Shown: positions 6,908 through 9,186 of the stretch, one piece after another | Numbering within the stretch: position 1 is the first letter of the stretch | Layout: every line of letters starts with the position of its first letter | Assembly: GCA_002728135.1 (NCBI GenBank) | Contig: PBVE01000005.1 | Coordinates: 124,001-188,000 of the forward strand | Reading direction: 5' to 3' | Source: Rhodospirillaceae bacterium | GTDB taxonomy: Bacteria > Pseudomonadota > Alphaproteobacteria > UBA828 | Length of the DNA stretch: 64,000 nt | Notes under the pieces: generated by a model | Told to the model about the DNA's origin: nothing | The model's input: only the letters and a program-made list of their open reading frames with translations | Database searches by the model: none | Position numbers and translations under genes: made by a program

Positions 6908-7969
6908 TTAATTTGAAGAATTATAACTTTTAACTGTTTTAATTAAAGTTTCTACGTTATTTATTGGTGTTGTTGGTAACACACCATGCCCAAGATTAAA
7001 AACATGGTTTCTTTCAGAAAAATCTCTTAAGATTGTTCTTATATGTTCTAACATTGGAATTCCCCCATTCAAAAGTGCATCTGGGTCTAAGTTTCCCTGT
7101 AAAACACAATCTTTAGGTATATTTTCAGCGGCCCATCTTGTCGGAACGGTAGTATCTAAACTTACCGCATTAACTTTAGTTTCATTAACATAATCAACAT
7201 ATCCTATCCCTGCTCCTCTCGGAAAACCGATGATGGGAATGTGGGAATAAGAATTTTTTATGTTTTGAACGATTTGCCTTGTTGGTTTGATAACCCACCT
7301 ATGAAAACTTTTTGGCGAAAGAACACCTGCCCAGCTATCAAATATCTGGATTACCTCTGCTCCTGCTTGGATTTGTTGTTCTAAATGCCAAGTTATCGCC
7401 ACAACTAGGCCATTTATTAACCTTTCAAAACTGTCAGGGTCTCTGTACGACCATCCCTTTACTTTTGAAAAAGTTTTTGTAGGACCTCCTTCTATCATGT
7501 ACGTTGCAATGGTCCAAGGTGCACCAGCAAATCCTATGATAGCTGTTTTTCCTATGTCACTACTACTTATTTTTTGGATTGTTTCGTAAACAGGACTCAA
7601 ATGAGATAAAAATTTTTGTTTATCTAATGATAAGTGACCCCTGTCTTCATTCATAGGACCCAGTCTGGGTCCTTCTCCCTCCACAAATTTCACTTCTTGC
7701 CCTAAAGCATCAGGTATCACTAATATGTCTGAAAAAACTATTGCCGCATCTAAATTGAACCTTCTTATAGGTTGAAGTGTAATAGTTGTTGCCATGTCTG
7801 GTGAATAACATAAATCAAGAAAACTGTTAGTATTTACTCTTAATTTTCTATATTCAGGAAGATATCTACCTGCCTGACGCATCAACCATATAGGTGTAGA
7901 TGGTTCTTTTATTCCAGATAGAGTTGTTATTAATAGTTTTTCTGGATTTTCAGTTTTTCTATTTGTCAT
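6908..7969 (-). CDS. hemE: uroporphyrinogen decarboxylase
   Basis: Converts uroporphyrinogen III to coproporphyrinogen III. The 353-residue protein shows the signatures PIWLMRQAGRYLPEYR (about 26-41), FSDILVIPDALG and GFAGAPWTIATYMIEGG. Length is normal. It is the promoter-proximal gene of the hem-rho group and reads away from the non-coding region 7970-8364. hemE flanks the replication origin in Caulobacter, so its position here helps to identify that region. Confidence 0.98.
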   Translation of the reverse strand: MTNRKTENPEKLLITTLSGIKEPSTPIWLMRQAGRYLPEYRKLRVNTNSFLDLCYSPDMATTITLQPIRRFNLDAAIVFSDILVIPDALGQEVKFVEGEGPRLGPMNEDRGHLSLDKQKFLSHLSPVYETIQKISSSDIGKTAIIGFAGAPWTIATYMIEGGPTKTFSKVKGWSYRDPDSFERLINGLVVAITWHLEQQIQAGAEVIQIFDSWAGVLSPKSFHRWVIKPTRQIVQNIKNSYSHIPIIGFPRGAGIGYVDYVNETKVNAVSLDTTVPTRWAAENIPKDCVLQGNLDPDALLNGGIPMLEHIRTILRDFSERNHVFNLGHGVLPTTPINNVETLIKTVKSYNSSN

Positions 7970-8364
7970 GGAAAAATTTCTTACTGTAAAAAACTTATTA
8001 CTATATCTATATAGATAATAAAGGTTGTTGTAGTTGTAGTAGTAACAATGGAAATTGGGGATTACTAAGTTATCCCCAAAAAAAATTTGTTCTTAGTATG
8101 AAAAAATCTGTGGAAAAAAACTAAGATCATACCAAGGGAGTTTATTTCCTTATAATGTAATCATATGTGAAAAACGTTAATAAATGTATAACAAATTTTA
8201 CTCACATTATTAGTATTCTAGGGGAAACTAATTAATAAGTAATATATAGAATCGGTTGTTTTTGGGATAAAATTTTTTGTGTAACAGAAACTATTTATAT
8301 CCACAAAGTATACGCAAATTATACCTTTTAAAGAAACATAAAGGCAAATAGAGATAGTGATTTT
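7970..8364. other. probable chromosomal replication origin (oriC) between hemE and ppsR
   Basis: A 395-base AT-rich region with no open frame of note, between divergent hemE and ppsR. It holds 9-mers close to the DnaA box TTATCCACA. One mismatch: TTATCCCCA (8070-8078), TTTTCCACA (8109-8117, reverse), ATATCCACA (8297-8305). Two mismatches: 8056-8064 (reverse) and 8262-8270 (reverse). The first pair forms an 8-bp inverted repeat (TTGGGGAT, 8055-8062, with 8072-8079). One GANTC site lies at 8249-8253. In Caulobacter crescentus the origin lies at this junction, and the following order ppsR-maf-aroE-coaE-dnaQ-secB is the same. Location is well supported by synteny; the exact unwinding site is not visible. 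The promoters of both flanking genes must also lie here. Confidence 0.8.
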
Positions 8365-9186
8365 ATGAAACAAGCTTTTCACCTACATTTAATCTCAGAT
8401 TCAACAGGAGAAACAGCAATAGCTATTGCAAGAGCAGCATGTGCTCAGTTCGAGGAAGTAGAAGCAGAAGAGCATCTGTGGTCCTTGGTAAGAACTAAGA
8501 ATCAATTAGGAAGAATAATTAACAATATTAAAATTAATCCAGGTGTAGTTTTATATTCCCTAGTCGATATCGAGCTTAGAAAAATAATCGAAGAAGGATG
8601 TAAGGATTTGGGATTACCTGCAGTTGCTTTACTAGATCCCACAGTAGAAGCATTAAGTAATTATCTACAAATAGAGAGCGTAAATCTTCCTGGAGGTCAG
8701 CATATAATTAACGCAGAAAGTATAAGGCGAATAGAGGCTATGAATTTTGCTCTTGCACACGATGATGGTCAAGGTGCTGAAACGATAAAGAGAGCAGATG
8801 TTATACTTGTTGGTGTATCTAGGACATCAAAAACACCAACATGTTTTTATCTTGCAAACCGTGGGTTAAAAGCAGCAAATATACCCTACGTCCCTGGCTG
8901 TCCTCTGCCTGTTAATTTATCAGATCTTAGAGGTACTCTAGTAGTGGGATTGACAAGGAATCCTGATCAATTAGTTGAAATTAGAAGGACTCGTTTGAGT
9001 CAAATAGGTCATAAGCATGATACTAATTACGTTAAAAATGAAATTGTAGATGAAGAGGTTAAAGAGGCAAGGCGCTTATTCTCTCAAAATAGCTGGCACG
9101 TTATAGACGTATCGCAAAGATCTATTGAAGAAATAGCAGCGGCAGTTTTACAGTTATACTCAAATAATGAAAAGAATAAAATTTAG
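8365..9186 (+). CDS. ppsR: pyruvate, phosphate dikinase / PEP synthase regulatory protein (kinase-pyrophosphorylase, DUF299)
   Basis: Bifunctional ADP-dependent kinase and phosphate-dependent pyrophosphorylase that switches PEP synthase or pyruvate phosphate dikinase off and on. The 273-residue protein begins HLHLISDSTGETA and has the P-loop-like GVSRTSKT (150-157) followed by PTCFYLANRG and IPYVPGCPLP, all diagnostic. It is the first gene to the right of the putative origin, the position of its homologue in Caulobacter. The target enzyme is not in this window. Confidence 0.93.
   Translation: MKQAFHLHLISDSTGETAIAIARAACAQFEEVEAEEHLWSLVRTKNQLGRIINNIKINPGVVLYSLVDIELRKIIEEGCKDLGLPAVALLDPTVEALSNYLQIESVNLPGGQHIINAESIRRIEAMNFALAHDDGQGAETIKRADVILVGVSRTSKTPTCFYLANRGLKAANIPYVPGCPLPVNLSDLRGTLVVGLTRNPDQLVEIRRTRLSQIGHKHDTNYVKNEIVDEEVKEARRLFSQNSWHVIDVSQRSIEEIAAAVLQLYSNNEKNKI

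Follow-up and report, generated by a model that had tools for sequence, protein, structure and literature searches.

Facing CCCC-type DnaA boxes next to a DnaA-trio-like array in the hemE/PPR origin of a marine alphaproteobacterium

Inspection of the window, i.e. the whole 64,000-nucleotide stretch of DNA that was analysed, showed that hemE and PPR diverge from a 395-bp intergenic region (7970-8364) holding an AT-rich stretch, an array of TAG and TTG trinucleotides and several DnaA boxes. The features of the locus are listed below; DnaA-box slots are numbered from the initial G of GGGGAT, the anchor in 86 gaps of relatives.

6908 to 7969, minus strand: hemE (uroporphyrinogen decarboxylase), a 353-aa ORF, left boundary gene of the origin
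7990 to 8022: AT-rich stretch between hemE and the trios, AT 0.80-0.85 in 20-bp steps, a likely DNA-unwinding element
8025 to 8042, plus strand: DnaA-trio-like array TTG-TTG-TAG-TTG-TAG-TAG of the 3'-GAT type, with TAA-CAA after it, up to 8048
8047 to 8055, minus strand: decayed trio-proximal DnaA-box slot (-10), AATGGAAAT here and TGTGGATAA in many relatives
8056 to 8064, minus strand: left box of the facing pair, TAATCCCCA, of the CGGGGATTA type, in the conserved -1 slot and pointing at the trios
8065 to 8069: spacer between the two 9-mers, CTAAG (5 bp)
8070 to 8078, plus strand: right box of the facing pair, TTATCCCCA, in the convergent +15/16 slot
8109 to 8117, minus strand: DnaA box TTTTCCACA, one mismatch
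8166 to 8174, minus strand: DnaA-box-like TTTTTCACA, two mismatches
8262 to 8270, minus strand: DnaA-box-like TTATCCCAA, two mismatches
8297 to 8305, plus strand: DnaA box ATATCCACA near PPR, one mismatch
8365 to 9186, plus strand: PPR/ppsR (COG1806, DUF299), a 273-aa ORF, right boundary gene of the origin

The hemE/PPR gap is the single chromosomal oriC of this marine alphaproteobacterium. For skew and motif counts, all 29 contigs of the assembly (91% complete, 2.3% contamination) were rejoined into 2,142,183 bp. The cumulative GC-skew minimum of contig C2 falls at window position 7764, a distance of 206 bp from the gap. The skew V at the origin is the deepest across all 29 contigs (1936 versus 1001 for the runner-up), a depth reached by 0 of 5000 random sign flips of 3-kb blocks. 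One perfect and one single-mismatch parS site (C2:121671 and C2:121760) lie 10.4 kb from the origin, with parA, rsmG and mnmG adjoining them and ParB just beyond, while no further parS within one mismatch was found elsewhere in the 2.14-Mb assembly. The two parS sites are 89 bp apart, at the rsmG/mnmG junction. DnaA boxes are dense in the gap: 3 lie within one mismatch of TTATCCACA where the rate of the 64-kb window predicts about 0.14, and 8 lie within two mismatches where 1.8 are expected. With 4 relaxed DnaA boxes the gap is also their densest 400-bp cluster in the assembly (runner-up, 3), and several relatives of the same family carry TTATACACA or TTATGCACA near the PPR end. The sequence-only reading had placed a chromosomal origin here from gene order and divergent transcription; hemE on the minus strand and PPR on the plus strand agree with it, and the skew minimum, which lies at this gap and not elsewhere in the assembly, the nearby parS sites and the dense DnaA boxes bear the claim out.

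In the loci of relatives hemE is divergent to PPR as well, and PPR orthologs were found in 31 of 40 related genomes. The origin is thus of a known type and ordinary in itself; what is variant is its core. The closest named relative, PAWF01000004.1 (L157; PPR 77% identical), is labelled 'Gammaproteobacteria bacterium', a label that is probably wrong because an alphaproteobacterial hemE/PPR origin is present. In Rhodospirillales bacterium 47_12_T64 (L188) hemE and PPR are about 2.4 kb apart, suggesting an insertion or additional genes between them. The dnaA gene of the window's genome is on a different contig (C20:45,500-47,000) and not at the hemE/PPR gap. A second DnaA-like gene (C18:2402-2875; L154) was considered as a special initiator and rejected: its product is divergent, fmt/tsaD-like genes adjoin it, contig C18 is 8.8 kb long, and given the contamination level of the assembly C18 is probably a stray, contaminating contig.

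The two 9-mers facing each other at 8056-8078 read TGGGGATTA-CTAAG-TTATCCCCA on the plus strand. Whereas the 9-mers are 5 bp apart, their arms TTGGGGAT (8055-8062) and ATCCCCAA (8072-8079), 9 bp apart, form a perfect 8-bp inverted repeat; the pair, its ATCCCCA core and its symmetry had been pointed out from the letters of the window and were confirmed at these positions. Both arms carry the core TCCCCA, which is the W-box consensus (PMC4285127). The pattern TGGGGA-N3-30-TCCCCA has four copies in 2,142,183 bp, of which the copy at 8056-8078 is the tightest and the only one with a spacing below 12 bp and ATCCCCA on both arms, the other three being looser and less symmetric. As the inverted repeat adjoins an A8 run, the palindrome might be taken for an RNA hairpin or an intrinsic terminator, but the A run lies 3' of the stem on the plus strand and would give A, not U, in the RNA, the pair is upstream of both hemE and PPR, and a scan of both strands returned no terminator-like site, which leaves this reading barely credible.

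To place the pair among its relatives, 28 loci from related genomes and 76 from a named-genome search were combined into 98 distinct gaps. Expectation-maximisation search of these gaps returned one strong common element, with a total of 2029 versus 780-793 for shuffled sets. The element begins with AT-rich DNA, its A/T-rich columns lying at the place of 7990-8022, and continues with an array in which every third position is G or T (TAG, TTG, TGG), the 3-nt periodicity of which is conserved over the 98 gaps; then comes, often, TGTGGATAA, and finally CGGGGATTA. Boxes of the CGGGGATTA type occupy the left-arm slot in most of the 98 hemE/PPR regions. A position matrix derived from 88 relatives, with the window's genus excluded, ranked the window core first in 2.14 Mb at 24.3 bits, a small margin over the 23.9 bits of a low-complexity repeat on C19.

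Anchoring of 86 gaps on GGGGAT revealed that the boxes stand in fixed slots. Columns 0 to 5 of the -1 slot (G/A/T) are conserved at 83-99%. Minus-strand boxes occur at -10 in 28 gaps and at -1 in 19, and plus-strand TCC[AC]CA boxes at +15/16 in 18 and at +26/27 in 24, with about 0.3 (0.29 for the plus strand) expected per position in each case. The two plus-strand slots are 11 bp, i.e. one helical turn, apart, and a few loci have both. Box type also follows the slot: CCAC (TGTGGA) was found at -10 in 28 of 28 cases, and CCCC at -1 in 18 of the 19 full TG[GT]GGA matches. Thinned to 67 gaps less than 70% identical, the set had 32 of its 37 plus-strand boxes on 6 of 55 positions (p = 4e-26). Plus-strand boxes of the inner slot tend to be CCCC and those of the outer slot CCAC (16:8 versus 8:19, p = 0.012). 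Both p-values overstate independence because the loci share ancestry. The first motif, of width 60, contained the right arm and could have biased the spacing; redone at width 46, ending at the left box, the search left the phasing unchanged. Among 22 gaps of held-out families, 16 had scores higher than 15 bits, and these 16 have 14 convergent boxes, 12 of them on the known slots; the remaining 6 gaps, including two from genomes with the CtrA closest to that of Caulobacter, fitted poorly or failed. Presumed Caulobacteraceae genomes (family f65) fitted the core weakly, at 7-10 bits. The core is therefore not universal, since f65 fits weakly and four further held-out loci are poor or failing. Azospirillum and Magnetospirillum are examples of laboratory alphaproteobacteria with an origin that fits it. 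An extra TG[GT]GGA peak on the minus strand, 66-67 bp downstream of the GGGGAT anchor in 18 of the 86 gaps and about six helical turns from it, suggests another phased box outside the core; in the window no minus-strand box was found at that place.

The behaviour of the arms among species bears on a different reading of the palindrome, namely that it is a dimeric operator through which a transcription factor controls hemE and PPR, the origin function residing in the other boxes. The perfect 8-bp inverted repeat, lying as it does between divergent start codons, is what such an operator could look like. A dimer site would however hold its spacing and symmetry, and of the 86 gaps no more than 8 keep GGGGAT..ATCCCC symmetry at the spacing of the window, six belonging to the same family. 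In relatives the arms behave as separate boxes, the left one fixed and the right one shifting by a helical turn, exchanging CCCC for CCAC, or absent. Moreover, both arms match DnaA-box cores, and a scan of the gap gave a single promoter-like match, no more than in shuffles. Because the arms vary independently among species we disfavour the operator and regard it as unlikely.

The TAG/TTG array at 8025-8042, which the sequence-only reading does not mention, adjoins the pair on the hemE side. AT-rich DNA, trios, spacer and box follow each other here in what appears, from the order and strand of the motifs, to be the layout of the DnaA-trio basal unwinding system (BUS). Under the published search rule, a DnaA box needs at least 3 correctly stranded DnaA-trios no more than about 16 bp away (PMC8287927); in the window three TAG are followed by TAA and CAA, and the last TAG ends 13 bp before the box at 8056. 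The B. subtilis element and this rule require a central A in the trios, whereas half of those in the window array are TTG, so that the consecutive central-A units are TAG-TAG-TAA-CAA and TTG units break up the remainder. Co-oriented tandem boxes do not flank the trios: only a decayed AATGGAAAT is left in the -10 slot, and the two good boxes are turned towards one another. Single-box modules are permitted by the published definition of the BUS (PMC8287927).

With the -10 slot decayed and the +26/27 slot empty, the inner CCCC boxes of the window face each other 5 bp apart, and several relatives of the same family resemble this core. The comparison indicates that in this lineage the -10 box was lost while the inner CCCC pair was retained, and that the facing pair is best seen as an evolved, local form of a core common in the sampled Alphaproteobacteria. 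The combination of two CCCC arms and short spacing without a trio-proximal CCAC box is limited to this family and a few others.

We also looked for the components of CtrA control. No CtrA ortholog was found in the assembly, the best match being a PhoB-like regulator 36% identical to the query. The Caulobacter CtrA query is a valid probe, because it found 92%-identical matches in other genomes. Most near-complete relatives of the same family have no CtrA either; two genomes of this family (G003 and G009) gave a 65-71% match, one with an internal stop, and these matches are either remnants or mis-binned contigs. GcrA is present in the window's genome. The gap holds no perfect CtrA site (TTAA-N7-TTAA), one-mismatch sites occurring only at 8177 and 8328, and no IHF consensus. 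Absence of ctrA has been reported for Granulibacter (Rhodospirillales) and Pelagibacter (PMC2877005). The sequence-only reading had offered the pair as a lineage-specific initiator or a CtrA-independent control site. Independence of CtrA stands, as no CtrA and no perfect site were found, but it is trivial and needs no special site, because CtrA was not found here and is missing from most of the family. A switch peculiar to the clade would agree with the lack of CtrA in most of the family and with the concentration there of the double-CCCC, short-spacing form (6 of 8 loci). Yet the left CCCC arm fills a slot conserved across Alphaproteobacteria, and families that do have CtrA share this arm as well as the trios and the slots of the right arm, while the DnaA encoded on C20 has the usual GGRDHTTV recognition motif. 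A clade-specific initiator or switch is thus disfavoured because left arm and trios are a common feature of the class, and we consider it highly improbable.

We favour, at a probability of roughly 0.8, the reading that the palindrome is the inner part of a DnaA-loading core, in which cooperative binding of ATP-DnaA opens the origin DNA by way of the trios. In the BUS, boxes load an ATP-DnaA oligomer onto the trios, which it follows 3' to 5' while stretching one strand (PMC6669920, PMC8287927, PMC10721633). For the core at 8025-8078 we infer DnaA binding, its affinity, strand opening and the direction of opening. ATP-DnaA would bind the two facing CCCC-type boxes cooperatively, and the protomer on the left box (8056-8064), oriented at the trios, would start a DnaA oligomer that extends 3' to 5' on the plus strand across the TAG/TTG trios (8025-8042). 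By stretching the plus strand, the oligomer would open the AT-rich stretch next to hemE. Stabilisation of the complex may come from the right box (8070-8078), a role that inverted boxes have in Thermotoga, and the distant boxes at 8109, 8166 and 8297 may raise the local concentration of DnaA. The CCCC boxes of the window are probably weak DnaA sites, and firing would therefore depend on the level of DnaA-ATP and on cooperativity.

The same pair could instead be a DARS-like or titration element, binding ADP-DnaA head-to-head for nucleotide exchange or holding DnaA in place of unwinding DNA. DARS sequences of E. coli are located away from oriC, whereas the pair sits in the origin gap. In relatives, furthermore, the left box keeps a constant distance from the trios and the AT-rich DNA, as would be needed for unwinding and not for titration. 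The likeness to E. coli is in the boxes, DARS1 and DARS2 holding inverted DnaA boxes with ADP-DnaA bound head-to-head (PMC10316083). Because the distance to the trios is fixed, a DARS-like site is disfavoured and in our view very unlikely.

If the DnaA-loading core is as proposed, the window may hold a variant BUS with facing and not tandem boxes, for which no description was found in the literature searched. CCCC-type (W) boxes would gain a predicted role as inner loading sites of an unwinding core, and the layout hints at a possible design of origins in bacteria that lack CtrA. More broadly, and tentatively, at somewhat less than even odds, many alphaproteobacterial origins may share a helically phased four-slot core of outer CCAC and inner CCCC boxes, reducible in CtrA-less families to a facing CCCC pair that opens the origin only via cooperative ATP-DnaA. 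Through the large comparison, the scattered 'DnaA boxes' of alphaproteobacterial origins become a fixed, phased arrangement beside DnaA-trios. No literature account joining 'basal unwinding system' with 'alphaproteobacteria' was found, and the four-slot layout was not seen in titles and abstracts of literature naming both DnaA-trio and Caulobacter; this phased layout may be the part that is new to a specialist.

Among known systems, Caulobacter has its mapped origin in the hemE/COG1806 gap, and for Rickettsia the origin is predicted to lie there too (PMC1914354). Caulobacter crescentus Cori shares its boundary genes and their divergent arrangement with the window (PMC1914354) and also, by sequence, weak boxes of the TCCCCA type; TCCCCA is the Caulobacter W-box, described as weakly bound by DnaA (Taylor et al. 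2011, as cited in PMC4285127). The link to these tested W-boxes is one of sequence only, because the presumed Caulobacteraceae fit the core weakly (7-10 bits). Cori has both G-boxes and W-boxes, whereas the gap of the window is without the TGATCCACA G-box; Cori is controlled by CtrA, whereas in the window's genome neither a CtrA gene nor, in the gap, a perfect CtrA site or an IHF consensus was found; and unlike Cori the window has a clear TAG/TTG trio array beside the facing CCCC pair. The hemE origins of Rickettsiales (Rickettsia, Wolbachia, Ehrlichia) resemble the hemE/PPR gap in being about 400 bp long, hemE-flanked and AT-rich with several DnaA boxes (PMC1914354), but most are described with CtrA and IHF sites, of which the gap has none matching the consensus.

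The BUS of B. subtilis carries two co-oriented boxes. In the window the proximal box has decayed, the other two form a facing pair of the CCCC type, and TTG makes up half of the trios. Shared between B. subtilis and the window are the order and strand of AT-rich DNA, 3'-GAT-type trios, a short spacer and a box directed toward the trios, and a BUS is predicted in most bacterial origins (PMC6669920, PMC8287927, PMC10721633). Thermotoga boxes are 12-mers of other sequence from a very distant lineage, and their spacing is not exactly transferable to the window; nevertheless, ATP-DnaA binds cooperatively there to inverted boxes with 4-6 bp between them, and boxes 2-3 of the Thermotoga maritima oriC (eTrio) combine TAG repeats with an inverted pair a few bp apart, as in the window (PMC10316083).
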